DNA from: Acinetobacter sp. CS-2
GTDB lineage: Bacteria; Pseudomonadota; Gammaproteobacteria; Pseudomonadales; Moraxellaceae
NCBI RefSeq assembly: GCF_016599715.1
Contig: NZ_CP067019.1
Location: 2,418,001 to 2,482,000, forward strand
Reading direction: 5' to 3'
DNA length: 64,000 nucleotides
Below, piece by piece: positions 1-18,017 of this stretch; the stretch's first letter is position 1; each line of letters starts with the position of its first letter. The notes below the pieces were generated by a model. That model did no database searches. It worked only from the letters and a program-made list of their open reading frames with translations, and was not told the origin of the DNA. Position numbers and translations under genes: made by a program.

Positions 1-795
1 ATAATTCCAAATAGAGGAGTCCTGCAAGGCACTAAGACCTTTTTGTGTGAGATTTTTATTGGCTATAAACTTCTCATTCTCAAGTATCCCGTATCGTTTG
101 AGAATATCTAGCTGATTCAAATCAAAAACCCCTAGGTACTCAATTTTTTCTCTAATCTCACTTGATGAATACTCAGGTAAAATATGCACCAGTAACAAAA
201 CGGTATAATCTAGTTGATTCAGCGTATAGGTATTAACAGCCTCAATAACAGGAACTTCATCTGACTTGGTACCACAATGATCAAGAAACCAAGTCAACCA
301 CGCTTTCACTTGATTCGCCGCATCAAGTAGGTTCACTGACCATAGAGGTAAAGTTGTCACCGCAAAGACACCACTATTCGAATGTCTTCGTATATAACGG
401 GTATGAACTAAATCACCTATATGATGTTGTGCTGGCTCATAACTACCACGATATCCACTTAATGCCTGTAATATTTCTGATTGCAATATTTGAAACTCAA
501 AGGCATCATGTTCACAGATCGCATGTTCACTATATTCAAGCGTCCAATCTAATCCCAAAGTCGTTTGCTTACAGAGTTCCATCAACTGTTCATGAGGTTC
601 AAGTATCAAGAGTGCACAGCCTGCCTGTTGAGACCAATCTACATAAAAATGAATATTGTCTATATTCAGCTCTTTCGCACTAACGAGTAATACCCCAGAT
701 AGAGGTAATACCTGACCTGCAATTTCAGGCTTGATCAACCGTTTTAAAATACGGCCTTTGCTCACACCTGATAAATATTCAGAGAGAAAAATCAA
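1..795 (-). CDS. Unknown protein of the methylation-linked operon, 3' part off the left edge
   Basis: An open frame runs from a TTG at 795 off the window, giving about 265 residues without a stop. A GGGGGA purine run lies just ahead of the TTG, and the gap to the stop of the ATPase gene is 14 bases, so the two are probably translated together. The translation starts IFLSEYLSGVSKGRILKRL and later contains DLVHTRYIRRHSN. I do not recognise the family: there is no Walker motif, methylase motif or nuclease signature in the visible part, and no membrane segment. Its place as the next gene after a large ATPase in an operon with two methylases suggests a partner in the same system, but that is inference. 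The start is uncertain because the frame is open slightly further upstream without an ATG. Confidence 0.6.
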   Translation of the reverse strand, partial: MIFLSEYLSGVSKGRILKRLIKPEIAGQVLPLSGVLLVSAKELNIDNIHFYVDWSQQAGCALLILEPHEQLMELCKQTTLGLDWTLEYSEHAICEHDAFEFQILQSEILQALSGYRGSYEPAQHHIGDLVHTRYIRRHSNSGVFAVTTLPLWSVNLLDAANQVKAWLTWFLDHCGTKSDEVPVIEAVNTYTLNQLDYTVLLLVHILPEYSSSEIREKIEYLGVFDLNQLDILKRYGILENEKFIANKNLTQKGLSALQDSSIWNY

Positions 796-809
796 AGCCT
801 TCCCCCTGA

Positions 810-3800
810 CTAATACGCAAAAGATAATTTAATTTTTAAGATCCCAGCTTCAACTAATTTTTGCTGTTGCTCTACGCTCAATGGAATCTGCTCTTGATTG
901 TTTGAAATAGCATCATGTGCTTTTTTCCAAGTTGGTAAATCAAGCCCTAAAGGGTTTAGAACTTCCTCTGCTTGTGTAGCCCACTGCTTCAATTTTTCGT
1001 TACATGCTTTTTCTAAATCTTTGAGACTAAGTGCACCTAGCTCATTTTCATCTATAAAGTTTTGATGATTTACTTGCCCCACAAACAATGGCTTTAAGCT
1101 TGGAAATTCCTGCCGCAACAAATTAATTTTTTCATTTTTATAAGTTGTACAGTGATTTTCAATTACTAACAATTTACTTGCAACAGAAGAGTTTAATTGC
1201 TGCCGAACAGTATTGTAAAAGCGATCAGCTATACCTTCCAAAGAAGAAAAATCCCCTTTTTGCATTTGTTCTCGATATTTTTCACGGTACTTATCTACAT
1301 CCTCCTCTATATAACTCAGACTTTCTTCCAAAATTGAAATACGGTCTTCAATTTCTTCTAGATTCTCTAAGTCAGAAGAGAACTGGGCTAATGCCTCAGC
1401 ACCAGACAACTTAACTGTCAATTCTTGAACTTTAGAGCGATGCTTTTCTAAGTTTGAAATAATAGTTTCATGTAGCTCCAAACATTTATTGTAGTTCGGA
1501 ACTATATAACCAGTCGAAATATGACCAATATCCTTTGGAATATTCGTATAAACATCTAGTCCAACTTCATCCGCAAGCTCTAATAGTTTCTTATCCGCTT
1601 CAACAAAATTCATTGTCCGCAGTGCATGGATAAAGGTATCACTACTTGCTTGAATTTGTTTTTTCGCTGTTTCACTAGGATTCTCATTATTTAAAACAGC
1701 ATCAACAATATTACCAATAGTATTTAGACACTTCTTAAAAATTAATACCGAACAATCATGATGCGCTTGAGCATCTGCTTCCATGATGTCAATCAGCGCC
1801 ATACTGCGCACTTTGATTTTATAACAAGCGGCTTGTACTTTTTCTGCATAAAGCGTTGCTTGTTGTACTCTTTCATAAAGAGACAACTGCCGATCAGCAA
1901 TATCTAAAGTATTTACATCTCTTAATGCTGTCTTTTGTAGATATAGTGGTTTGACTTTTTCAACCAAAGAAAGGATTTCCGTCCTTTGCTTTAAAAGTGG
2001 TTTAATTTTAAGAACATCATCTTTAGAAACGATACGCTCTAATGACTCGGTTGCAACTTTGAGTTGCCCAAATAAATTTTTCGCTTGGCTTAAGCGATCT
2101 TTTGCCTCTACCGTTTGAACCCCTAAGGTTGTACTGTTTAGCGGTGCAAAATGATGTTGAATTTGATCATAACCATAGGTCGTTGCAAGTATCTCTATTT
2201 GCTTTGCATAGCTATCTTCTGCCTTACCCTCAAACCATAATTGTGCCTCTTCAATCATGTTTGCAAGCTTTACTACTGGATATGTCTTCCAAATAGCTTT
2301 ATGTGCTGTCGGGTCCTGAATCTCGATTAAATGTAATTGATTACACCACCACATCCAGTCATCAAAAACATGTTTACTGGTGTTTTTTGTAAATCCGACA
2401 TAACCAAAATACCAGGCTTGTTCTGCTTTTTCTAAGCTCCACGTGTTCTCAGCTTTATCTAAGCTGGCAAGGTTGGCAAAAAAGATAGGGATATCTGCCA
2501 CACTCAGTTGCGGTGTATCTAAATTCAAGAACAAGCCAGCATGTTCATGTTTCTGATAACCTTTCGCCTCATAGGCTAACGGTACTTTAAGTTTATTTAA
2601 AACATTCTCAACTTCTTTAACATCGACATCCTTGAAGGATGCCGAAAGAATAGCAGTACGTTCTTTCTGCTCTATGGCCAATTGATACCATGCTTTGAAT
2701 AGAATACTACGCTCTTCTTCTGATAACTTTCCATCTATGCGTAATGGCCAAGCAATTTGACCTTTACTATTCAGATGCTGTCGCCAATTTAAAATAGCCT
2801 GTTGAACATTGTCCGCAATACCTTTTAATTTGTTTTTAAACTTTTTAATAAAACTGTCTAAATTCAAGTTAATCTTGTATTTTTTACATACTTCTAGATC
2901 TAGACCAATACGTTCCAACTGGTCCACTTCGGTTGGATTTATATAATGCAGCAGTATTGCATCCCGCAATGTGTCCTCGGCATCTAAACGAATGTATTGC
3001 TCATACAGATTTACGGAGGCCGTTAAAGCCAAAATAGGCGTACGCCCAAACTGTCTACAATATTCTGCTGAAAACTCATGAAGTGCATCAAGTTCTTGAC
3101 GATTGCTTGACCAAGCGAATAATGCTTTCCCTTTATGATGCAACTTCAATGAATCTAAGGTAATCAAACCATTGCTTGGTTCGGTCAAAATTACCAGACC
3201 ATTCGCCTTACTATTTGCTGAGGTTGGATAAATAGATTGATTATAAGACCAATTCACATCCAACAAACGAATAAGACCTGTCACACGTGTTGCAAGCTTT
3301 AATAAAGGTTGCTGACTACTTTTTTGCTGCAACTCATCCAAGGCTTTTTCTAGCCCATCACTCATACTCGGCTCTTTAAAAATTAAAGAGTTTTGCTGAG
3401 CACTTTTATAACGAATATCTAAATTCATCAGCATCGAGATGCTTGGGCCAATATGTGTTGCTTCCTCTTCCGGAAGTTCCAAAGATTGACCGACAATACT
3501 TTGCCACAAAGCATCTGCTGCAAATTCAACAGCAGGATGATCGTAAAGTAGATTTAATAAATACTTAAATTCGATTTTCGATAAAGGAATCAAGAAAGCT
3601 TGTTTGCCTTCATGATTCTGCTCTCGGATAGAGAATGTTTTTAAGTTATCCAGTAATGTCTCTAAACTTAAAACTTGCTCAACAGCAGGATATAACCATT
3701 CATCGTTCTTTTCACGAACGAACTTTGCCTGTTCTAATGCTTTACGACAATCTAAACGATCTAAGTAAATCAGCTTATATCGTGCTGCCACAGGTTCTTG

Positions 3801-5087
3801 ATGTTCATTCTTTAATGCAAATATTGCATCTGCATTTTTCATTTCAGCAAGCGGTAGTGGCAATTGACCATATAACAATGTTTGGCATTGTTTCAGAAGT
3901 TCTTGGTCACGGGATTGTATCCCTTTAATCGCTCCGTTATCGAGTACATGTTTTTCCACACGTCCAGAGCCCTCTAAAACAGCATTAAATAATTCACCGA
4001 TATCTGCAACGTCTTTATTGGCTTGTCTATATTGCTCTAATACAGCATCAATATTCGCCATGATGACATTAAACCAACCAAAGTTAGCTGCACTCATCGC
4101 ATAAGCTGCTTCAACCAATCCTATTGGATAGTCGTAGGTGAGTTTCTTTTGCTCTTTAAGTTTTTCAACGTAGTCGGACACATCAGCAAATGCGTTGTGT
4201 TCAAGCTCGACTAATTCAAAGCGTCGAGCAACTGACTGAATCTCTCGAAGTTGTTGCCCCAACAGCGGTGAGCATAAAGCAACATAACGTAACCATGGCA
4301 GTTTACGGCGGGGATCTTCTTCTTTAATTGCCTTACCAATGAGGCGAATCGCTTGCCCATCTAAACGCTGATTATTGTCATCTTCCAAACCAAATGAAGC
4401 TGCTTCAGCAACGGTTTCTAATTCATCTAATACAATTAAAATATATTGGATACCAAATGTTTTAATATATTCATAAGCTTGCTGAACCAAACCTACAACT
4501 AGATTCACCTCTTCATAAAGTGTTTCTTCAGAATGCTTTTTATCAAGTTGTAATATCTCAGCTAACTTTTGTGAAGAAAAGCCAATTGGTTTTAAACGCT
4601 GATAGGCCTGACTCGCAATTGCGCTTTGAATGGAATGATCAAATTCTTGGGTGGCAAGTGGGAGTAAAGCTTTATACAAGCCATAAGCAAACCAGTTATC
4701 TGAGTTTTGATAATCTGATGCCACCTGTGAATAGCGAATATATAACGCTAAATATTCATCACGTTTAGCTTGATCAAACAGTGTTTGGTCCTGTAATTGA
4801 CCTTTTTCATCACGTACAAACCAACCTTTCGATGATTCGTTAATTTGTGCAATCAGTTCATGACCTAGGCGAGATTTACCACGCCCCCATTCTGCTTCTA
4901 CAGCAAATACATGAGCAAACTGCTCTTCGTTATGATCGACCGTCTGAATAAAGGTTTTAAAGCGTTTAAAGAACCGACTTTGACCAACCAATGGATCACG
5001 CGGTGGATAATCAGACACACCCGTTGCAGCCCAACGATGTTGCTGTACCAAATTTGTGATCATGTCGTTATCAAGTTCTAAACGCAT
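810..5087 (-). CDS. Large P-loop ATPase with C-terminal coiled coil (defence-system type)
   Basis: This 1425-residue protein has a Walker A motif AEWGRGKS at residues 65-72 and a Walker B motif ILIVLDE at about 216-222, so an N-terminal NTPase domain is clear. The first 60 residues include DPLVGQSRFFKRF, like the N-terminal lead of AAA-type ATPases. The middle is not recognised. The last third is rich in Glu, Lys and Leu, with heptad-like stretches near residues 1215-1290, predicting coiled coil. The ATG is preceded by GAGGG seven bases away. Size and layout recall the large ATPases of BREX (BrxC) and related phage-defence operons, and the neighbours (HsdM, HsdS) agree, but I see no sequence proof of BrxC homology. 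It likely acts in the cytoplasm, using ATP to couple methylation-based self recognition to an effector. That role is inferred. Confidence 0.75.
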   Translation of the reverse strand: MRLELDNDMITNLVQQHRWAATGVSDYPPRDPLVGQSRFFKRFKTFIQTVDHNEEQFAHVFAVEAEWGRGKSRLGHELIAQINESSKGWFVRDEKGQLQDQTLFDQAKRDEYLALYIRYSQVASDYQNSDNWFAYGLYKALLPLATQEFDHSIQSAIASQAYQRLKPIGFSSQKLAEILQLDKKHSEETLYEEVNLVVGLVQQAYEYIKTFGIQYILIVLDELETVAEAASFGLEDDNNQRLDGQAIRLIGKAIKEEDPRRKLPWLRYVALCSPLLGQQLREIQSVARRFELVELEHNAFADVSDYVEKLKEQKKLTYDYPIGLVEAAYAMSAANFGWFNVIMANIDAVLEQYRQANKDVADIGELFNAVLEGSGRVEKHVLDNGAIKGIQSRDQELLKQCQTLLYGQLPLPLAEMKNADAIFALKNEHQEPVAARYKLIYLDRLDCRKALEQAKFVREKNDEWLYPAVEQVLSLETLLDNLKTFSIREQNHEGKQAFLIPLSKIEFKYLLNLLYDHPAVEFAADALWQSIVGQSLELPEEEATHIGPSISMLMNLDIRYKSAQQNSLIFKEPSMSDGLEKALDELQQKSSQQPLLKLATRVTGLIRLLDVNWSYNQSIYPTSANSKANGLVILTEPSNGLITLDSLKLHHKGKALFAWSSNRQELDALHEFSAEYCRQFGRTPILALTASVNLYEQYIRLDAEDTLRDAILLHYINPTEVDQLERIGLDLEVCKKYKINLNLDSFIKKFKNKLKGIADNVQQAILNWRQHLNSKGQIAWPLRIDGKLSEEERSILFKAWYQLAIEQKERTAILSASFKDVDVKEVENVLNKLKVPLAYEAKGYQKHEHAGLFLNLDTPQLSVADIPIFFANLASLDKAENTWSLEKAEQAWYFGYVGFTKNTSKHVFDDWMWWCNQLHLIEIQDPTAHKAIWKTYPVVKLANMIEEAQLWFEGKAEDSYAKQIEILATTYGYDQIQHHFAPLNSTTLGVQTVEAKDRLSQAKNLFGQLKVATESLERIVSKDDVLKIKPLLKQRTEILSLVEKVKPLYLQKTALRDVNTLDIADRQLSLYERVQQATLYAEKVQAACYKIKVRSMALIDIMEADAQAHHDCSVLIFKKCLNTIGNIVDAVLNNENPSETAKKQIQASSDTFIHALRTMNFVEADKKLLELADEVGLDVYTNIPKDIGHISTGYIVPNYNKCLELHETIISNLEKHRSKVQELTVKLSGAEALAQFSSDLENLEEIEDRISILEESLSYIEEDVDKYREKYREQMQKGDFSSLEGIADRFYNTVRQQLNSSVASKLLVIENHCTTYKNEKINLLRQEFPSLKPLFVGQVNHQNFIDENELGALSLKDLEKACNEKLKQWATQAEEVLNPLGLDLPTWKKAHDAISNNQEQIPLSVEQQQKLVEAGILKIKLSFAY

Positions 5088-5134
5088 GTTTTTTCCCTCA
5101 GAACAATTTCTTTTTAAATGTCTTTAAATACGGT

Positions 5135-6307
5135 TTAATTTTTTGAAAGTAAGTAGTTTTGGCGTAGTTCGAGCACACTGTCTTTAATGACTTGTTGTAT
5201 GTATTTGCTTTTACGGCCAAAAATTGGTGATAACGGTAATCTGTAGCAAGCATCACTAAATATAGGATGACTACTAAATTGCCCTAGCTCCCCCATGCCC
5301 CCATCCCGATATTGCCATAGCTGGAGTTCAAGTGCTTCTTTAATCAACCCTGCTAAAGTTTGCGCTAAATCGTGTGATGTTGGGCAATATGGATAACATG
5401 TTATGCCCACTGTCGTTAAAACTTTCAATATCACATCAGCTAAGGTGCCAACGATAACTTCATCACCTTCTTCACCAATCGCAACGACTTTGACATCACT
5501 TGCTGCATAATGGCTCTGACCTTGCGGCAAGCACAAGTTAAATCCTGCACCATGTTCTACTGCCCAAGCATCTTGGGTATAAACGATTAAAGCCAATAAC
5601 ATCAGCCATGGATTAGCATTTAAAGTATCAAGATACGCTTCACTTTGCCGTGCTGTGATTTGTAGTGCCCAACGATGGCGTGAATAGCCTTGATATTGAG
5701 GTAATACAATAAGTCTTCCTGCCGACCAATTTGTTTCAAAGGCTTTATGCGTTTGATCCATTTCATACAGCACTTGCTCGTCTTTAGGCGTAGCTTGTAA
5801 GTCGTAGGCAAATTTAAGAATTCTCAGCAGAATTGGTAGGGCTAAGTTTTCATGTAATTCACAGCCGAGTAGCTCTCGTTCGAGTTTTGCCAATGGCGTT
5901 GCTTCGAGTTGCGTTGTGGCATCCGTATAGTGAAGTAGCCATTCACTCGCCTCTCCTAATGCTTGGATACGTTGTATGACCACCATCGGGTCCTGCATAT
6001 GTTGTGCTTCTTTACAACGTGCAATGGCTAGATTAATCCAATATTTTCTAATATTTGGATTTAATGCCAGTAAAATCAAATGCCATTCATTCAGCTCCTT
6101 CAATGCCGAATGAATTTGGATCAATTTTGGGGTTAGTGCATAAGCTGAGATGTTTTCGCCATCAAACATCGGCTGCAATAACTGCACAAGCTCAGGGAGA
6201 AGTAAGTCTTTTTGACTTACCTCGATAGCTGTTTGTTGCCATAGATACTTTTGTGCATGTATGGCTTGTTGTGCTTGGGTGAAAATACTAGAAATAAGTG
6301 ATGTCAT
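5135..6307 (-). CDS. Unknown 390-residue protein of the methylation-linked operon
   Basis: A cytoplasmic-looking protein with no signal peptide or membrane segment and no motif I recognise. It is rich in Leu and Gln and probably mostly helical in the N-terminal half; the centre contains SAGRLIVLPQYQGYSRHRW and the C-terminal part ends in a basic stretch. It starts eight bases after the hsdS stop with a GTAGGTGAAAC leader, and the ATPase gene starts 47 bases after its end, so it is in one operon with both. Because it always sits between the specificity subunit and the ATPase here, it may be an adaptor between the methylase complex and the ATPase. That is inference only; I do not assign a function. 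Confidence 0.65.
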   Translation of the reverse strand: MTSLISSIFTQAQQAIHAQKYLWQQTAIEVSQKDLLLPELVQLLQPMFDGENISAYALTPKLIQIHSALKELNEWHLILLALNPNIRKYWINLAIARCKEAQHMQDPMVVIQRIQALGEASEWLLHYTDATTQLEATPLAKLERELLGCELHENLALPILLRILKFAYDLQATPKDEQVLYEMDQTHKAFETNWSAGRLIVLPQYQGYSRHRWALQITARQSEAYLDTLNANPWLMLLALIVYTQDAWAVEHGAGFNLCLPQGQSHYAASDVKVVAIGEEGDEVIVGTLADVILKVLTTVGITCYPYCPTSHDLAQTLAGLIKEALELQLWQYRDGGMGELGQFSSHPIFSDACYRLPLSPIFGRKSKYIQQVIKDSVLELRQNYLLSKN

Positions 6308-6314
6308 GTTTCAC

Positions 6315-7389
6315 CTACTCAAACTCTTTTGCTTGTTCTAGCAGTTCATAAAACTCATCTAAATCTGCAAAGAGTGGTTTACTACCAGCAACAGCATAAC
6401 CATCTTCGGTCATTTTACTTAAGATGGCACGATCTAAACTATTATCACCCTGCTCTAAAGCATTTTGAGCTTGGATCAATTCATCTTCTGTAATTGATCC
6501 ATTAATTAATCCTTCTACGAGAAATTTTGAAATAGAAAGCAAAATTTTTGAGAACCACTGACTTCTATGGTGAACTCTAACTAACTCACCAACAACCTCT
6601 TGACTCTCAATTAAAGGAATAATTAATTGTGCAATCCACTCCTGGGTAATATGAGGTTGGGCGACGCCTGTAGCGAAACTTTCCACTTGTGTATTAACAA
6701 TTTGATGATTAAGCACAAAGTCAAGATAATAAGGATTTAATCGTAAATGTTTTTTTATTCTGAGGCGTGCAATAGTAGAACCTGCGGCCAAATCGTTATT
6801 TAATTCAGGAATAACAACTGCTTTACCAATTGTGCCATCTTTCGAAAATGCAATATCTCCTTTTTCAAGATGGATTTGTGGTTGCTCAATAAATTTCTCT
6901 CTATCTATTGAAACTAATTTTTCAAAATCAATAACACCATTATTGAATTCAACACCTCTCAACAACCAAGGTCCAGATTTTCTATAAAATTCTGTTGTTA
7001 ATCCTTTCCATCCGACCATTGCAGAAATTTCAACCAACTCATTTAAAGGAGCTGTTTTGAAAGATGATTTTTTGATATGCCTTAATATAGCTAATCGCTG
7101 AGGTGAATTATATTTTAAATCTAAACGATTCTCTAATTCGTCTGGTTTTAATTTACCAATTTTACTAACATTTAAAATTTCAGAAGACCAGTGAATTGAG
7201 TCAATAAATATATTTTCAGCTTTAGAAATATAAGATTTGGCAAATAATCTTAATATTTCAGCCTGAGAAACTTTATCACCAATATATTTTTTTATATTGA
7301 TAGAAAAATTTGGTATCAAATAATTTAATATAGAGTTTTCATCATTATAAGAAATCCCTGTATTTGCAATATGTCTACTTTTTTGTTTC
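6315..7389 (-). pseudogene. hsdS: hsdS, C-terminal part (split by ISAba1-type element)
   Basis: This is the second part of a type I specificity subunit. The first residues (LKQKSRHIANTGIS) complete the central conserved region, followed by a second target-recognition domain containing LNELVEISAMVGWKG, DIAFSKDGTIGKAVV and a tail with FATGVAQPHITQEWIAQL, the classic repeat found after each HsdS recognition domain. Removing the insertion and one copy of its 9-bp duplication joins this part in frame to the N-terminal part at 8588-9042, giving 1539 bases and a 512-residue protein, a normal HsdS size. A TTG at 7391 could start a 358-residue fragment with only one recognition domain, so partial function cannot be excluded. 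HsdS sets the DNA sequence methylated by HsdM. Confidence 0.85.
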
Positions 7390-7416
7390 AAAAAGAACCT
7401 CTGTACACGACAAATT

Positions 7417-7953
7417 TCATAGGATCCTTGTCCTATCAGGCTTTTTCTTTCTTAAAATTGCTAGCACTTTCTTAAATTCTTCTTTTTTTCCAAAACCAAT
7501 CAAACGTAGAATAGCCATTTGAACATAGTCCAAACCGTAGCGAAATAAACTTACTGAAAGTCGTCCATGCTTCTTTATTTTTATCGCTTTTTTCCGATCA
7601 TGTTGCCATTCACCTGTTAAATAGCACCAACAGAAACCGATAGCTAGCACTGCTATCAATTTCTTGACTCGTCTAGGGTCTGTTAAACGAGTATTTTCAA
7701 GATTGAATCCACGTCCTTTGAGACAACTAAATAACGTTTCGATTTCCCAGCGTAATGCATAATCACGAATAGCAGAAGCATTAAACATAGGAGAAACAAC
7801 AAGTAAAAGCTCTCCATCTTCTAATCGTAGCGCACTAATATACAGTTTCACTCGACCAACCCAAATACGTCGTTTACGACATTCAGTTTGACCAACTTGA
7901 AGATGACGAAATAAATCACTAATTTTATGATTCTTGGCTAAGTGATTGGTCAC
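7417..7953 (-). CDS. ISAba1-type transposase, second frame (orfB)
   Basis: This 178-residue frame is the C-terminal half of an IS4-family DDE transposase. It contains ALRWEIETLFSCLKGRGFNLE, the Y/R-x-E-containing region that carries the catalytic glutamate, and ends in a basic tail. The first frame stops just after a run of seven A residues (minus strand GTTAAAAAAAC). Slipping back one base on that run joins the frames as RVKKNFIVTNHL, which is the continuous sequence expected for the ISAba1 transposase. The GTG overlap start is therefore probably not used by itself; the functional product should be the fused protein from 8510 to 7417. Confidence 0.88.
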   Translation of the reverse strand: MTNHLAKNHKISDLFRHLQVGQTECRKRRIWVGRVKLYISALRLEDGELLLVVSPMFNASAIRDYALRWEIETLFSCLKGRGFNLENTRLTDPRRVKKLIAVLAIGFCWCYLTGEWQHDRKKAIKIKKHGRLSVSLFRYGLDYVQMAILRLIGFGKKEEFKKVLAILRKKKPDRTRIL

Positions 7954-8510
7954 AATAAAGTTTTTTTAACACGTATACAGAAGTTAATGTCATTTTCAAT
8001 TAACCATGTAAACCATTTCTCACCGATAAATTCTCTGTCTGCAAACACATTCACAATACGATCTTTACCAAAAATGGAGATAAAGCGTTGAATCAAAGCA
8101 ATACGCTCTTTTGTATCTGAATTTCCACGTTTATTGAGCAATGTCCAAACAATAGGTATCGCTATTCCACGATAGACGATGGCTAACATCAAGATATTAA
8201 TATCTCGTTTTCCCCATTTCCAATTAGTTCTATCCAAAGTTAATTGGACTTTATCGAATGAAAATATATTGAAAATTAACTGAGAAATTTGACGATAATC
8301 GAAATACTGATCTGCAAAGAAGCGTTGTATACGTCGATAAAATGATTGTGGTAAGCACTTGATGGGTAAGGCTTTAGATGCAGAAGAAAGATTACATGTC
8401 TGTTTTACAATTAATGCAAGCATAATCAGTGTAAAACATTTTGCATGTGACTTGTTCCACTTTAGATATTTGTTTAAGATGAGATGTAACTCATTGAAAT
8501 GTGTCATCAT
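7950..8510 (-). CDS. ISAba1-type transposase, first frame (orfA)
   Basis: A 186-residue N-terminal half of an IS4-family transposase starting at either of two adjacent ATG codons (8510 or 8507). It contains FDKVQLTLDRTNWKWGKRD, which holds the first catalytic Asp (LDRT), and VNVFADREFIGEKW with the second Asp (ADREF), so the first two acids of the DDE triad are present. The third lies in the following frame, reached by a -1 slip on seven A residues. Together the frames give about 360 residues, usual for ISAba1. The transposase catalyses cut-and-paste movement of the element. Confidence 0.88.
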   Translation of the reverse strand: MMTHFNELHLILNKYLKWNKSHAKCFTLIMLALIVKQTCNLSSASKALPIKCLPQSFYRRIQRFFADQYFDYRQISQLIFNIFSFDKVQLTLDRTNWKWGKRDINILMLAIVYRGIAIPIVWTLLNKRGNSDTKERIALIQRFISIFGKDRIVNVFADREFIGEKWFTWLIENDINFCIRVKKTLL

Positions 8511-8518
8511 ATTCGTCG

Positions 8519-8546
8519 TCAGAAAACAAGTATTATGCCATTATTT
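8519..8546 (+). promoter_or_regulatory. Outward promoter of the ISAba1-type element
   Basis: TCAGAA at 8519-8524 and TTATTT at 8541-8546 are separated by exactly 16 bases. This matches the known outward promoter of ISAba1 (TTAGAA, 16 bases, TTATTT) with one change in the -35 box. It points out of the element to the right, antisense to the N-terminal part of hsdS and to hsdM. Confidence 0.7.
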
Positions 8547-8587
8547 CAATGAGTTATCTTTTTTTGTCGTGTACAAAGAAAAAGAAC

Positions 8588-9042
8588 TTAGTTTGTGAAT
8601 AAGCAATAAAAAATCGTCCATCTAAATCTTTATTTTTGAAAGATAAACGATAACAGCTTCCATTATAAAGATAACCATTTTCACATTCTGAAACTCTAGC
8701 TACACCTTCAGGACCATCAATACATGCTCCCTTAATTAAAATAAGAATATCACCTGTTTTAGCTATTGCTCGGCTATCTTTGTAATACTTAGGGACAAAA
8801 ACACCTATTTCTTGGATATATCCATAACTTAAATCACCACCTCTAATCAAAGGCAAGCCATTATCAAGATATTCATCTGATTTCGGTAAAGCTCCGTAGC
8901 CTGACTTTTTTATATCAATTAAACTATTTAGACTTACAGACCCAAAATTATTCAAAATTAATTCATTATCTATAAAATCTTGTTTATAGAAATCAGCATC
9001 TAAACGATTTCCCAAAAATTCAGGCTTAATAATATTAATCAT
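8588..9042 (-). pseudogene. hsdS: hsdS, N-terminal part (split by ISAba1-type element)
   Basis: The ATG lies two bases after the hsdM stop with GAGGT ahead of it, showing translational coupling to HsdM. The fragment encodes most of the first target-recognition domain: LDADFYKQDFIDNE at the start, then VSLNSLIDIKKSGYGALP, LPLIRGGDLSYGYI and TGDILILIKGACIDGPEGVA, all typical of HsdS recognition domains. The frame then runs into the insertion. In the ancestor it continued in frame into 7389-6315. On its own this fragment has one incomplete recognition domain and lacks the coiled-coil spacers, so it should not form a working S subunit. Confidence 0.88.
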
Positions 9043-9044
9043 TA

Positions 9045-11189
9045 TTAACCTCGCTTATAGGCATTTACAATTGTATCCAAATCATTTGGGACACCTGCGT
9101 TATAGTCTTCAATATTATTTTTCACCAAATAACCCAAAGTATCTGCAACCCCCATAAATACATCAGTTTGTGGTTCGGCTAAAAACTCTTCAGGTTTTTC
9201 TGGGTTCGCTTCTCGTTTTTGTAAATATAAAATAGAGGTTTTAGCACCTGTACCAGACAGCTTAAACGTATCACTCGGTAGAGAAATCACTGCTTTTACA
9301 ATCGCTTTACCACCAACAAACTCGCCAGTTTGCTCATCTTTTTTGCCCATAATATATTCACGGACATAACGATCACCAGAGTTACATAATACTCCGTCTG
9401 GCAACACAATAAACAAGCGACCACCCGGTTTAAGTAATTGCAAACAACGGTCAATAAACAATACAGCAGGGTCAATATTGGCACCGACAGGTTTCCAAAA
9501 ACCTTTATTGTCAGGCTTACTTCCCAGAGCTAAACCACTGACTGTTGGGAATAGACCGTAAAGTGGTTTTTTATCTGAACCGCCCACACGGCGAAGGTCT
9601 GTACGATACCCAGCCCACTTTGGATTGCCATCCACATCTAACTCCAAAGGACCTGTATTTTCCCAACGCATTTTCACATAGTCGTAATATGCATTGTAGC
9701 TGTCTACCGTTTTTTCAGCAGGACGGAAGCCACCTAAAATTTGCTCCATATTGGCTTCATAGACTTTTTTGGACTCACTGCCTTTTTTATCATTCCCAAA
9801 TTTCGGCGTACCAAATGGTGGGTTGGTACAAATTAAATCAAAAGAACATGGTTTTAATGCAGGTGCCGTTAAAGAGTTATCTGTATAGAAAATTTTGGCT
9901 TTAGGTGCACCTTGCAATGCCATATTGACACGTGCCAGCATCACCATACGCGGTGCAGCATCAGCACCAACCAATGATTCATCACGGATTTTCTGTTTTA
10001 ATTTTTGTTTCTCTGCATCGTTTAACCCAACCAATTGTGTATCAATCAAATGGTCAAATTGACTTAAAGCAACTGAACCAAAACCAAAAGAACCACAGGT
10101 TGGATCACAGAAACGGAAATCACCATTCGAGAAACGTGCCATAAACGCATCATCACCTGAAAGATCATGAATCGCCATTTCTACCATAGCCTGCTTAACA
10201 GGATTTGGCGTTAAGTAAACACCTAAACCACCTTTAGATTCGAAATTTGCACGTAAGAATACATCGAATACACGACCCAACAAATCACCTGACACATCAC
10301 CCAAAGTCCCCTGACTCTTCAGCACCTTGCCATCATTAGTCGTTAATTCACCTAAATTTTGAATTGCATCTAACAAATCTTCAAAATTTTTCGGGTTTGC
10401 AAGTCTTAAATGCACTTCATCAGAGAAAATTGCATTCTTAGCACCATCATCACTAATCACAATATAGTCTGGGTGAGTTTTAAATGTGTCAAAAGCATCT
10501 TTGATTTGCTCAACAGCAGTTTCGCCATGTTTTTTTACATATGTTGTATTAAATACATCTGCAAAAAGATGCGTCTTTCCATGACGGTCTGCAAAGCTAA
10601 TATCATTGTGGTAAATACGGAAACTTTCTAAAAAGAGTAGTTTTGCAACTTCTTCAATAATGTCATTTTTATCATTGACCTTATCTTTGGTTACACGGTA
10701 AACATTTTCATGGAAAGCATCAAAACGTTGCATTAAACGTGTATAGATTTTCATAGACCAACGGAAGGTTGGGTCTCGCTCTAAACGCTCAAAACTACGC
10801 ATTTCTTCAAGTGCTGGCAGTTTATCAACCGTATGTGTACCTGTTGAGCCATCACTACCAAATAAACTTAAAATAGCTTGATTACTACTGTCTTTTACTA
10901 CGGCGAATACAGGCCATTCAGTTGTCACATCTTGAAGTAAGGTATATGCAAACTCATCAAATTTTGCAGTATCTGCTACCGTTCCCCAATGCCCATCCGC
11001 CAAGGCAACGAGCATAACTTTTGGTGTAACATTCCCTTCGACCATTCCTTGGATCAGCACAGCCTCAGCAAATTCATGTGCCTCTATGCTTTCTTGTTGC
11101 GCGTTGTAACTTGAAAAATCTTTTTGCAACTGCTCGATAATGTGTTGCAATTGCTCACGCTGTTCAGTTTGTTTTGTATCTTTAGCCAT
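9045..11189 (-). CDS. hsdM: Type I-like N6-adenine DNA methyltransferase (HsdM family)
   Basis: This 714-residue protein has the full set of N6-adenine methylase motifs: GVYLTPNPVKQAM at about 323-335, the SAM-binding loop FCDPTCGSFGFG at about 360-371, and the catalytic NPPF at 456-459. A C-terminal region with GGRLFIVLPDGVLCNSGD follows, as in HsdM. The N-terminal 300 residues are longer than in the smallest HsdM proteins (about 500-530), and hold an additional domain that I do not recognise. It would methylate adenine on a site set by the HsdS encoded two bases downstream. No HsdR-type restriction subunit is visible in the window, so the methylase may serve as the self-marking part of another kind of system. 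Confidence 0.88.
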   Translation of the reverse strand: MAKDTKQTEQREQLQHIIEQLQKDFSSYNAQQESIEAHEFAEAVLIQGMVEGNVTPKVMLVALADGHWGTVADTAKFDEFAYTLLQDVTTEWPVFAVVKDSSNQAILSLFGSDGSTGTHTVDKLPALEEMRSFERLERDPTFRWSMKIYTRLMQRFDAFHENVYRVTKDKVNDKNDIIEEVAKLLFLESFRIYHNDISFADRHGKTHLFADVFNTTYVKKHGETAVEQIKDAFDTFKTHPDYIVISDDGAKNAIFSDEVHLRLANPKNFEDLLDAIQNLGELTTNDGKVLKSQGTLGDVSGDLLGRVFDVFLRANFESKGGLGVYLTPNPVKQAMVEMAIHDLSGDDAFMARFSNGDFRFCDPTCGSFGFGSVALSQFDHLIDTQLVGLNDAEKQKLKQKIRDESLVGADAAPRMVMLARVNMALQGAPKAKIFYTDNSLTAPALKPCSFDLICTNPPFGTPKFGNDKKGSESKKVYEANMEQILGGFRPAEKTVDSYNAYYDYVKMRWENTGPLELDVDGNPKWAGYRTDLRRVGGSDKKPLYGLFPTVSGLALGSKPDNKGFWKPVGANIDPAVLFIDRCLQLLKPGGRLFIVLPDGVLCNSGDRYVREYIMGKKDEQTGEFVGGKAIVKAVISLPSDTFKLSGTGAKTSILYLQKREANPEKPEEFLAEPQTDVFMGVADTLGYLVKNNIEDYNAGVPNDLDTIVNAYKRG

Positions 11190-11215
11190 AGTTCATACAT
11201 CATTCAATAAAGAGA

Positions 11216-11587
11216 TTAGCCCTTAAGCACAACAAAAGGACCTTTAATTTCAAGTTCAGACATATGCTGAACGGTATTTCTAAGCTGTTGTTCAGACATT
11301 CGAACATCGCTTGGTAATCTTTGCAGCATCTGTGCAAGTGGCATTCGCCCACTTGGCGCTTGTTGCAGCAACAATAAAATATGTTGCTCAAGCTTGGGTT
11401 TATCATTTTGCTGAGTACGATCAGACTGACCCACTAGCTTTCTCCATAGCTCTACTTGCTTTGGACCCAAAGCCAAACTTTGCCAAAGTGATCTATGCTC
11501 ATCATAAAAATCATCTAATGGTTTACCATCCACATCAGTAGAATTTAAAATTTTCTGAAGCTGTGTTTTGAGTTGCTGCTGGTCCAT
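11216..11587 (-). CDS. Small unknown protein between the two methylase genes
   Basis: A 123-residue hydrophilic protein, rich in Gln and Leu, that I do not recognise. The C-terminal half (about residues 70-118: KLEQHILLLLQQAPSG, then MSEQQLRNTVQHMSELE, then a short strand GPFVVLKG) has the helix-helix-strand order of a winged-helix fold, so it may bind DNA or a protein partner; this is a guess from pattern alone. It ends 26 bases before the hsdM start and shares its direction, so it belongs to the same transcript. A 131-base gap without visible genes separates it from the upstream short methylase. Confidence 0.6.
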   Translation of the reverse strand: MDQQQLKTQLQKILNSTDVDGKPLDDFYDEHRSLWQSLALGPKQVELWRKLVGQSDRTQQNDKPKLEQHILLLLQQAPSGRMPLAQMLQRLPSDVRMSEQQLRNTVQHMSELEIKGPFVVLKG

Positions 11588-11718
11588 ATCTATCCAGTCG
11601 AATTATTTTACCCTTCGTTACATAGTACAACAATCTGATCATGTCTCATTGATTCCCTAAAGAAAACTGCTTGATTTCTCAACATATAAATCAACCAGCT
11701 CACTTCTCGAATGAAGCT

Positions 11719-13005
11719 TTAACGTGTGTTCTGCCCACATTGTTCCAATAATTTGCGTAGCTTCGCTTGGGCACTGATGAAATTTTGTTCAAGTTCTTGT
11801 AACTTCTGATGCTCTTGAACTAAATCTAAACGTTTGACCTGAATTTCATTAATGAAATATTTATTAAAACTCAAGCTCATATCATTAGATCGAATTTCAT
11901 CAACAGTCACGATCTTACAAACATCTTCATCTACTTTGCCATGAAAAACGGATGCTATATGCTGAAGATCTTCGTCAGAAATTGTTGAACGTAAAACTTT
12001 TCGTTTTACAAACTGACTAATATCAATCAACTTAACGCCTTTGTGCTGCTTCCCGGCCTTATTTAATACCAACAATATTGTCTCAATTTTGCTATGTTGC
12101 ATGAATCCCTTAGGCAATAAAATAATGCTATCAATCCAATCGTTTTCTAATAACTCAGATCTCAAAGCAAGGTCATACCCACCTCTAAACAACCACCCAG
12201 ATGGAACTTGGATAAATGCTTTTCCAGTTTCATTTAATTGGTAAAATGCTTGTTGAATCCATGCACTATCAGAAGCATTGGTTGGCATAATTTTAGATAA
12301 ATGTCTTAAATACAGCGTGCTCTTTAACGCATTTGGATTAATTCGTTCACCAAACGGCGGTGTAGAGATAACCAAATCTACTTCATTGGACAACTCATTT
12401 GCAGTTAATGAATCTTGCAACTGGCAATCTAAACGTTTACCAGCCAATTTAAATAGAACTTCAGCCATCGCAAGTGGTAATTGATTAATGTCTCGAAGAT
12501 AGTAATCTTGAGCATTCATCTTAGAGGCAATCAAACCAATCCCTGAAGCACCATCATAGAAACGATTTACCTGTTGGTCACCAACCAGCACTTTAACTAA
12601 ATTTGCCAAAATTTCATTACTGCTAAAAAATTCATAATTGAATTCATCAGCTAACACCTCAGCTAGTACCTGAGCAACTGCTTTTCCATAGTCTTCAGCA
12701 TTTCCATAACTCGCAAATGCCTCAATGAAAGCTCTGAGGATGATGGAAAACTCAACTTCATCTAGCTTCTCTGTGACCAAAGCATCGATAAACTTCAGAT
12801 CCGTTTCACGTAAGAACTGTTTGATTTCATCTTTTACTTTAGTTTTGCTCAGCTTCTCAAGCGAGCGAGCAAAATCTACATCCATAAAACATACGTAAGC
12901 GGCAAGAGTGACCAGTTCAGGAATATGCTCCGCTTTTTGGAACATATGTAAAGCATCTAAACTTTGTTTAATACGCACTTTCAAATCGAATTGACTATTT
13001 TTCAT
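11719..13005 (-). CDS. Short HsdM-like methyltransferase with altered motif IV
   Basis: About 428 residues from the ATG at 13005, which has GAGGGTG ahead of it (GTG codons at 13020 and 13014 are alternatives). The fold is that of an HsdM-type N6-adenine methylase: a SAM loop FYDGASGIG and motif IV in LVISTPPFGERI. The motif is TPPF, not NPPF or DPPY, and the SAM loop has FYDGASG where FxDPxxGxG is usual. The catalytic Asn/Asp is thus replaced by Thr and the Pro of the SAM loop is lost. It is shorter than the other HsdM. It may be a non-catalytic SAM-binding or DNA-recognition partner of the half-size S protein encoded just upstream, or a weak enzyme. It overlaps or abuts that gene. Confidence 0.75.
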   Translation of the reverse strand: MKNSQFDLKVRIKQSLDALHMFQKAEHIPELVTLAAYVCFMDVDFARSLEKLSKTKVKDEIKQFLRETDLKFIDALVTEKLDEVEFSIILRAFIEAFASYGNAEDYGKAVAQVLAEVLADEFNYEFFSSNEILANLVKVLVGDQQVNRFYDGASGIGLIASKMNAQDYYLRDINQLPLAMAEVLFKLAGKRLDCQLQDSLTANELSNEVDLVISTPPFGERINPNALKSTLYLRHLSKIMPTNASDSAWIQQAFYQLNETGKAFIQVPSGWLFRGGYDLALRSELLENDWIDSIILLPKGFMQHSKIETILLVLNKAGKQHKGVKLIDISQFVKRKVLRSTISDEDLQHIASVFHGKVDEDVCKIVTVDEIRSNDMSLSFNKYFINEIQVKRLDLVQEHQKLQELEQNFISAQAKLRKLLEQCGQNTR

Positions 13006-13016
13006 CTCTGTCACCC

Positions 13017-13616
13017 TCACATCATTAGTTGCTGTAAGCTAGCTTCAACAGTTAATTTCTGTTGCACTTTCAATTTATCCAATAAACCTAGCGCTTCAAT
13101 ATTTGCATAAAATATTGAAGAGATTAGCTTTTGTTGCTCTGCCTCAGGTACATTTATCTCTAAGTTCTTCAAACTTGATATCGATAAACCACGTACCGTT
13201 GAACCAATTGAAATTTCATCCATCAGTGCTTGACCATGACTACTATTAATAAAACTCACAATCACTTCAGGCAAAACACCATCTTTGCAACGAATCACAA
13301 AAATATTAGGCGATGCAATACTTGGAATTTCCAAATCATTCTTTTGAAATATTGCAGCACGAAAATTACTACCTCGTGCCATTAACAGAATGTCATTCTC
13401 TAACAACACATGACCATCTAAACGACCTTGTTCAATACAAACTTTCTTTAGATCATTTTCATTACATTGTACAAGGCCATTTTCTAGTAAGTTATTCCCA
13501 TTTAGACATACTACTTCTATAAAACCAGGTTTAACTTCTGTTATTTCTCGATGATTTGCAGCGCTTAATCCAGACTGAATTGTTGCAAAATGAGTGAGAG
13601 CTTTCTTCTTATTCAT
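13017..13616 (-). CDS. Half-size HsdS-like specificity protein
   Basis: A 199-residue protein resembling one half of HsdS: one target-recognition domain (VVCLNGNNLLENGLVQC, GHVLLENDILLMARGSNFRAAIF) followed by the conserved repeat STVRGLSISSLKNLEINVPEAEQQKLI and a terminal helix for the coiled-coil spacer. Natural half-size S subunits can act as dimers, reading a palindromic site. The ATG has TAGGAG six bases upstream and is the first gene of the operon that runs left past the window edge. It is paired with the short methylase, as the full HsdS is paired with the full HsdM. Confidence 0.82.
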   Translation of the reverse strand: MNKKKALTHFATIQSGLSAANHREITEVKPGFIEVVCLNGNNLLENGLVQCNENDLKKVCIEQGRLDGHVLLENDILLMARGSNFRAAIFQKNDLEIPSIASPNIFVIRCKDGVLPEVIVSFINSSHGQALMDEISIGSTVRGLSISSLKNLEINVPEAEQQKLISSIFYANIEALGLLDKLKVQQKLTVEASLQQLMM

Positions 13617-16187: not shown

Positions 16188-18017
16188 CTAAACGATATTA
16201 TCATCCGATAAAGTCTTTCCCATTACTCTAGAAATAATCATAAGCAGTTGCTGTTGGCGAGCACTAATAAAAGCTTCAAAATCATCGGCTCTTAATAAAT
16301 CGGGTTCAATAAAATGTGTTGCTAGGATTTCGTTCATATTAAAATCATTAATCAACACAGTCTTATGATTTTGCAAATCATTAAGATATTTCGATGGTGC
16401 TTTACCTCCTATCATACGATTTGCTTTATACGAAATTGGTGTTTTATTAAGGATAGAATCATATATTTTGGAAGGCTTACCATTTTCTTCACACCATTTT
16501 TTCGGGAAAATATGGTGAATGTCCAATGCAACTTCTTCGACATCTAAATTTTGAACAGATTCCTTCCAGAAGAAGTCTTGAGCACCCTCTCTTAATACCA
16601 ATGTATTTAGACCTTTATATGCAGCACTCAAGCGAGATCTTAGAGTTTTCAGACGTTGTGCCTGGAATGATGCTTCTTGAATTGTTCTAACCTCATGATC
16701 TGGATTTTGAACCCAATTACTAAAGTCCTCTAGGTCATTGGCAATACGTGTTTCTACGGCGCCACCATAAAGTTCACCAAGCACCCCACACCAGAACCAT
16801 TGGCTTAACTTTTCATAGATTTTTGGTTCTAACCATCGCTCTTTAAGCAAAGTGAGAATTGCTGCTAGAGGTACCAACTGCGTGCGGTATGGTAAATCCT
16901 TAGTAAAGAAAAAACATTCCTTGCGCAAGAACTTAGCAACTAATATAAAACCATATTCAACATCATTCGACCATTTTTCATAATCAGTTAATGACATCCC
17001 CAATATTGCTGCACGCTTTGCACTTACTGCAGAAATAAATTTACCAGTTTTATTGGCTGCAATATCTGCTTTTCTCTGTTCCAATGTACTTAATAAGCTT
17101 ATGGCTTGTAAGTAATCCGTCGGCTCTACCTGCTTTAATATAGATTCTTTATCACTCAATCTTTTAGCACGACCAATAGGATTACGCTCAGGGTGCCCAT
17201 ACCAATCATCTCTGAGGTTATACCCTTCAGCAGCAAATGTCGCTGTAACAAGTTCAAATACAGATAATGGAACACCCCCTGTATTCACTTTTTCAAATAC
17301 CAAACAAACTGCTTCTTTAGAGTTCTCTTTATTTAATTTAATAACCGGTACCGCATACTGTCTAAAGCTTTCAAGAATTTTTTCTCTGAAGTCCATATAT
17401 TCTTGAATTCTGTTTGCATGGTTTCTAAATAAAATTACTTCCCATTCATTGGCATTAAAAATTCGATTACATGGGAAAAAGAATGCTTTGCACTCTTTTT
17501 CCGTGGTAGAAAAATCTAGCTCAATCTCTTCGCCTTGTTCATCGACTACCTTCTTAACATCTCGGCCAAAATTTGTTTTAACAATTTTATCTTCATCTAC
17601 TGAAATAAATGCATCTTCTAAATTTCCACTCAATGCCATTTCAATATCAATATAATAATGACGTTTAATGACTCGACCTTTTTCATCGAAAGTCTTAACT
17701 GGTTTATCCAGTTTCAGCACTTGTGTTAGAGACGTTAAGCGTTGTTGCCCGTCCAAGACCAGCTCTTCAGGCTCTATATCCTTTTTGGCAAGCTCTACAT
17801 TTTCGATTGGACGTACCTGAAATTTTACGTCTCCCCCTGTCTCTAACAGCATCACTGCACCAACAGGAAATGACCTCGCAATACTCACTAATAATGATTT
17901 GATATGAGCGTCATCCCAGACCCAGCCACGTTGAAAGTCTGGTAACTGTAATTTCCCCTCAACAATTTTTTTTAAAATTTCACTTAAGTTTTCTTTGGTA
18001 CTGTCAAAATTACTCAT
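16188..18017 (-). CDS. DUF262/DUF1524 protein (GmrSD-like restriction enzyme)
   Basis: This 609-residue protein has an N-terminal DUF262 (ParB/Srx-like) domain with LPDFQRGWVWDD at about 25-36, VLDGQQRLTSL at about 87-97 and VFEKVNTGG near 240, and a C-terminal DUF1524 HNH domain with LDIHHIFPKKWCEENGK near residue 500. This is the arrangement of GmrSD-type IV restriction enzymes, in which DUF262 uses nucleotides and the HNH site cuts modified phage DNA; SspE of phosphorothioation systems is built similarly. It stands 62 bases upstream of the small methyltransferase, in the same direction, and may share its transcript. A stop-codon-free frame and intact motifs suggest it is functional. Confidence 0.88.
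   Translation of the reverse strand: MSNFDSTKENLSEILKKIVEGKLQLPDFQRGWVWDDAHIKSLLVSIARSFPVGAVMLLETGGDVKFQVRPIENVELAKKDIEPEELVLDGQQRLTSLTQVLKLDKPVKTFDEKGRVIKRHYYIDIEMALSGNLEDAFISVDEDKIVKTNFGRDVKKVVDEQGEEIELDFSTTEKECKAFFFPCNRIFNANEWEVILFRNHANRIQEYMDFREKILESFRQYAVPVIKLNKENSKEAVCLVFEKVNTGGVPLSVFELVTATFAAEGYNLRDDWYGHPERNPIGRAKRLSDKESILKQVEPTDYLQAISLLSTLEQRKADIAANKTGKFISAVSAKRAAILGMSLTDYEKWSNDVEYGFILVAKFLRKECFFFTKDLPYRTQLVPLAAILTLLKERWLEPKIYEKLSQWFWCGVLGELYGGAVETRIANDLEDFSNWVQNPDHEVRTIQEASFQAQRLKTLRSRLSAAYKGLNTLVLREGAQDFFWKESVQNLDVEEVALDIHHIFPKKWCEENGKPSKIYDSILNKTPISYKANRMIGGKAPSKYLNDLQNHKTVLINDFNMNEILATHFIEPDLLRADDFEAFISARQQQLLMIISRVMGKTLSDDNIV

Follow-up and report, generated by a model that had tools for sequence, protein, structure and literature searches.

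The question raised by this locus is what the minus-strand operon at the start of the window, the 64,000-nucleotide stretch of Acinetobacter sp. CS-2 analyzed here (G000:C1:2418001-2482000), encodes, given that type I methylase and specificity genes stand in it beside a very large ATPase. The preliminary description read one minus-strand run from a half-HsdS to a 1425-residue P-loop ATPase and an edge-cut protein, without HsdR, and proposed it as a candidate undescribed system. The listing of open reading frames (ORFs) agrees with that run, and HsdR is absent from the PADLOC matches listed for the operon proteins (the best 25 for some of them). The further protein expected past the edge is completed from the left flank as p275, but the operon reaches farther than foreseen: listing of the ORFs in the fetched flanking DNA indicates that it continues for ∼5 kb to the left of the window, with p378, HerA, p199, and a Ser/Thr kinase. 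Ten core genes, all on the minus strand, thus follow one another in the order p123, HsdM, HsdS, p390, ATPase, p275, p378, HerA, p199, and kinase, six of them in the window with p275 truncated by its edge. In this extension, proposed earlier as a check, the operon's other genes were found, and for each of bacteriophage exclusion (BREX), the methylation-associated defense system (MADS), and type I restriction-modification a tested defining feature was lacking; PglZ and BrxL, reported missing before, are likewise not among the matches listed with the extension included. We assign a probability of roughly 0.55 to the reading that, judging from its protein families, the operon encodes a self-marking anti-invader system, with methylation as the label of self DNA and a machine of motor and nuclease directed against DNA that lacks the label. 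The operon is conserved and uncatalogued, and its function is probably anti-phage.

The ten-gene set is conserved across several phyla. The genome_contigs collection, with one genome per species for 84,980 species, was scanned using an alignment of 29 ATPases, and the scan yielded 68 loci in Pseudomonadota, Bacillota, Cyanobacteriota, Planctomycetota, Acidobacteriota, Verrucomicrobia, and Fibrobacterota, among other phyla. The scan worked through two short peptide patterns, and loci lacking these would escape it. Gene order was read by profile searches of the locus ORFs, and 17 loci too short on one side were set aside. Among the 51 loci with enough flank, 45 retain the exact ten-gene order on one strand. 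The order is thus kept beyond chance, and the portrayal of the locus as a methylation-linked multi-gene unit with an order kept in unrelated genomes stands. Two of the six non-conforming loci (L028 and L039) contain all ten genes, sorted in swapped order due to a long p378 ORF that overlaps p275; L029 and L060 lack parts of the set; and L071 and L073 belong to a divergent branch. In L072 and L073, the two members of the branch (L071–L074) of sufficient length to show its layout, the locus encodes the methylase, two proteins of ∼500–550 and 360 residues, the ATPase, p378, the specificity subunit (its gene between p378 and HerA), HerA, p199, and the kinase. These two loci also have genes of the sizes of p390 and p275 at matching places that the profiles did not detect, and the branch may represent a second system type.

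The ATPase tree (69 rows, calculated by a quick method) groups mostly by phylum. A Fibrobacter row (L019) falls within Pseudomonadota with support of 99, and one planctomycete row (L040) also falls within Pseudomonadota, mostly among alphaproteobacteria; these placements suggest either transfer or an error in binning of metagenome-assembled genomes. Within groups carriers are scarce, with one in 369 genomes of the class and two in 149 of the genus, where the ATPase of the sole other carrier is, like that of A. lactucae, 86% identical to that of CS-2. No ATPase relatives were found in 72,556 plasmids.

The [ND]PP[FYW] motif of the methylase is kept in all 62 HsdM relatives, and the Walker A pattern, loosely defined as G.GK[ST], in all 68 ATPase relatives. 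For the ATPase, 360 homologues were counted in a set of 8000 scored candidates. The proteins p123, p390, the ATPase, p275, p378, and p199 have no match in PADLOC (2023) at E 0.001 or in NCBIfam (2026) at E 0.01, and five of these six have no PADLOC match even at E 1. The likeness of the ATPase to BrxC suggested in the preliminary description is one of size only: a KAP P-loop match is weak at most and found in six of 29 family members, and the PADLOC scan of these 29 returned one weak PDC-S20 match and nothing else. Profile searches of PDB sequences, part of which had been proposed there for the ATPase, p390, and p275, matched the C-terminal part of the ATPase to coiled-coil chains only (best E 0.004), and returned nothing better than E 0.1 for the rest of the six proteins (best E 0.27 for p123 and 0.64 for p390).

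The genes to the left of the window supply the putative motor and nuclease. p378 is predicted to have a NurA fold, and it adjoins HerA as in HerA-NurA pairs. When the p378 profile was aligned to six NurA proteins in hhalign, nothing significant emerged, and it was a subsequent structure search that showed the predicted fold. A NurA scan of 120 genomes of the phylum found none, and a NurA from L088, queried on its own against PDB, returned no NurA chain. The first catalytic aspartate of NurA is Asp49 in T. kodakarensis, according to the available text of PMC12977600. The p378 position that alignment offsets make its likely equivalent, 59, is occupied by S, A, V, T, or G and by aspartate in none of 35 sequences, and p378 is probably an inactivated NurA. 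In p199, residues E68, D82, E98, and E100 are invariant in 36 of 36 sequences, an E..D..ExE set that resembles the active-site residues of BamHI, and a restriction-endonuclease-like fold is favored as probable. HerA itself is 92% identical in protein between CS-2 (L002:17138-18823) and E. coli (L004:29168-30853), members of two different orders, compared with 39–73% for seven other genes. Recent transfer of HerA was considered as the cause and is ruled out, since its third codon positions are as diverged (44% identical) as those of the seven other genes (34–44%); on these identities HerA is under very strong constraint.

Comparison among E. coli genomes separates specificity from the rest of the machine. 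Coverage of the E. coli core reaches 80% or more in 207 of the 5,426 complete E. coli genomes, among them the common laboratory strain E. coli W, where none of the ten core genes is marked as a pseudogene; the search with HsdM matched 218 genomes, 209 of them with 80% coverage. In the four loci read, the core lies in an island flanked by nan genes on one side, with fim beyond them in the three loci having longer flanks, and by an integrase gene on the other, which is a pseudogene in two. A phosphorothioated-DNA-binding endonuclease, McrB, and McrC precede the core, McrB having an internal stop in one locus; the broken McrB was omitted from the pairwise comparison. In four of six locus pairs the specificity subunits are only 34–68% identical whereas the other genes compared are 94–100% identical, and specificity is therefore swapped in E. 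coli while the rest of the machine stays constant.

In CS-2 the specificity gene, described earlier as a full HsdS, consists of two ORFs around an insertion sequence, which is 100% identical over its full length to elements annotated as ISAba33 on Acinetobacter plasmids. Identical nine-base sequences border the element on both sides, and its ends are imperfect inverted repeats as judged by eye. Because hsdS is split in this way, the CS-2 copy of the operon is probably defective or inactive. The other genes are still open despite the split, which suggests, from this one genome, that restriction also requires the specificity subunit for cutting, as in type I systems.

The region upstream of p123 varies among loci, being occupied by a second HsdS-like gene, by McrBC, or by nothing recognized. 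An extra HsdS-like gene precedes p123 in 24 of the 45 complete loci and is absent from 21; all four such genes scanned (from L021, L038, L051, which is one of the short contigs, and L063) match Specificity_I models, with best E from 0.0013 to 2.5e-19. McrBC occupies the slot in the E. coli loci read and in all four other enterobacterial loci. In one Fibrobacter locus, from a metagenome-assembled genome, McrBC instead follows the kinase (L019:19945-23474), and a PDC-S02 candidate lies upstream. In CS-2 the slot holds the half-HsdS and the short HsdM, the latter correctly recognized before as altered, with TPPF as its motif IV vs. NPPF in the 714-residue HsdM. The earlier view that two methylase/specificity pairs characterize the system does not survive, however: the short HsdM occurs in one of 149 genomes of the genus, that of the window itself (E 1e-40), nothing among the ORFs of 71 loci matches it with an E below 0.2, and its closest plasmid relative is just 30% identical. 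The half-HsdS and short HsdM possibly form an inactive methylase pair serving as a sensor.

In the self-marking reading, HsdM and HsdS would, as their families imply, methylate adenines at sites chosen by the specificity subunit and so mark the host chromosome. A HerA hexamer capped by a p378 dimer would form a DNA-pumping ring, modeled on HerA-NurA complexes, and the very large KAP-like ATPase, together with p390, p275, and p123, could act as sensor and loader, placing the ring on DNA. The sensor would recognize unmethylated or replicating invader DNA, probably via the specificity subunit, p199 would perform the cutting, and the kinase may serve, through phosphorylation, as the on/off switch of the complex. 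A more specific form of this proposal is offered tentatively and is rather less probable: that these loci form a widespread class of their own among restriction machines, having a type I self-mark, a HerA ring that has a probably inactivated NurA as its cap and passes invader DNA to a small BamHI-like nuclease, control by the KAP-like ATPase and the kinase, and interchangeable upstream sensors (second HsdS, McrBC, or the half-HsdS with short HsdM).

The closest known relatives share logic with the operon more than parts. A methylase, a specificity subunit, a Ser/Thr kinase, and a HerA-like ATPase, all parts of MADS, are matched in the operon, and the loci might be the same system diverged past present models. 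HerA matches mad8 (3.8e-25), the kinase mad6 (8.9e-46), HsdM mad2 (2.2e-19), and the extra HsdS-like gene of the Firmicutes locus L063 mad5 (1.6e-22), while the six model-less proteins support the earlier case for an undescribed system. Domains of the methylase, HerA, and kinase are common to many systems, and the operon differs from MADS in its NurA-fold and nuclease-like partners. Membership in MADS was rejected on scores far below the curated NCBIfam cut-offs (109.6 of 720 bits for MAD2 and 123.3 of 460 for MAD6). None of the six core proteins otherwise unnamed matches a mad model at E 1, whether MAD1, MAD3, MAD4, or MAD7, where the presence of mad1, mad3, and mad4 in the library is deduced from numbering and remote homology is possible; mad7 (PDLC04139) was not found in the CS-2 genome. 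MAD2 exceeds its cut-off in none of 369 genomes, leaving no MADS locus for direct comparison, and only parts of the set were present in the eight regions that surround weak matches to mad7 or MAD2. A distant MADS type is accordingly considered unlikely. BREX resembles the operon in combining methylation with a large ATPase and differs in that PglZ, BrxL, and BrxC are not among the PADLOC matches listed; membership was rejected on PglZ and BrxC, and the matches of the short HsdM to PglX (0.0003) and of the kinase to PglW are generic. The operon is thus MADS- or BREX-like in logic and distinct in its parts, and does not show the defining features of either system that were tested.

Kinase-driven abortive infection has been proposed for Pgl, and here too the machine might sense invader DNA while the kinase kills or stalls the host and the nuclease-like protein is structural. 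Although the active-site motifs of the kinase are conserved and its top PADLOC match is PD-T4-6 (4.8e-46), this match spans mainly the kinase domain, and the invariance of the active-site-like residues of p199 would be unneeded for a structural role alone; this explanation, too, is doubtful. HsdM/HsdS and HerA are each found alone elsewhere, so that a solitary type I methylase could merely adjoin an unrelated HerA/kinase module of repair or mobility. In archaea, HerA and NurA work as a pair in end resection (PMC12977600). This last explanation is very improbable, as both halves keep one order in 45 of 51 loci and the loci are rare and patchy, unlike a repair pathway.

Other comparisons likewise yielded partial likeness. 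As in type I restriction-modification, HsdM and HsdS are encoded together and HsdS is swappable, but a HerA-based set replaces HsdR, and type I membership was rejected on the lack of HsdR already described. Tdp is a phosphorothioation system; the operon differs from TdpAB and HerA-NurA in having a type I adenine methylase instead, with eight further core genes, and no phosphorothioation enzyme was among the Pfam matches of the ten proteins scanned, a search that used no Tdp model. The HerA/FtsK capture systems and BRC also join a HerA translocase to a large ATPase and a nuclease in proposed defense, in sets with DndFGH, D5-helicase, Orc/Cdc6, and PglZ/DUF6079 (PMC10853773, PMC12839542); in the available text of these papers no described set combines HsdM, a separate HsdS, and a stand-alone kinase. 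A literature search, with subscription papers and preprints outside its reach, found no description of the ten-gene set. A McrBC census (PMC11090510) promises a further paper devoted to McrBC linked to methylases, and the enterobacterial version might be among its subjects. If correct, the present reading adds a conserved ten-gene methylation-guided system, six of whose genes have no model in PADLOC and NCBIfam, connects pumps of the HerA-NurA type, known from end resection in archaea, with a modification-dependent system in bacteria, and offers a testable answer to how restriction proceeds without HsdR or PglZ.

Features of the operon in Acinetobacter sp. CS-2 (window positions, or contig positions of G000:C1 where seven digits are given)
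Feature	Position	Strand	Remarks
half-HsdS, 199 aa, one specificity half	13017..13616	-	PADLOC Specificity_I 2e-12; local accessory, non-core
short HsdM-like, 433 aa, TPPF for NPPF	11719..13020	-	Pfam N6_Mtase 4.4e-37; local accessory
p123, small protein, 123 aa	11216..11587	-	core gene 1; no family match
HsdM, adenine methyltransferase, 714 aa, NPPF intact	9045..11189	-	core; PADLOC MTase_I PDLC03023, 1313.8 bits over 1-714
hsdS 5' piece (core gene, split)	8554..9042	-	ORF terminates within insertion sequence
ISAba33, 1180 bp, two transposase ORFs, within hsdS	7399..8578	-	9-bp repeats 7390-7398 and 8579-8587
hsdS 3' piece, 358-aa ORF beginning beside insertion sequence	6315..7391	-	PADLOC Specificity_I 5.2e-49
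p390, 390 aa, unassigned fold	5135..6307	-	core gene 4; no family match
KAP-like P-loop ATPase, 1425 aa	810..5087	-	core; Walker A, weak KAP match, coiled coil
p275, 275 aa in full	1..795; full gene 2417968-2418795	-	core; completed from left flank
p378, NurA-like, 378 aa	2416825-2417961 (left of window)	-	
HerA, 561 aa	2415138-2416823 (left of window)	-	Pfam DUF87 2.4e-45
p199, nuclease-like, 199 aa	2414591-2415190 (left of window)	-	
Ser/Thr kinase, 490 aa	2413122-2414594 (left of window)	-	Pkinase 3.1e-34

Two neighbors of the operon were also observed. Beyond its left end, on the opposite strand, lies a PsyrTA-type toxin-antitoxin/defense pair (L002:10840-15051), in which PsyrT is present as two ORFs with a transposase-like ORF between them. 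Adjoining the operon within the window, a 609-residue protein (16188-18017) matches PDC-M55C (1.7e-27) and HEC-05 (7.1e-21) in PADLOC and is a candidate defense gene.
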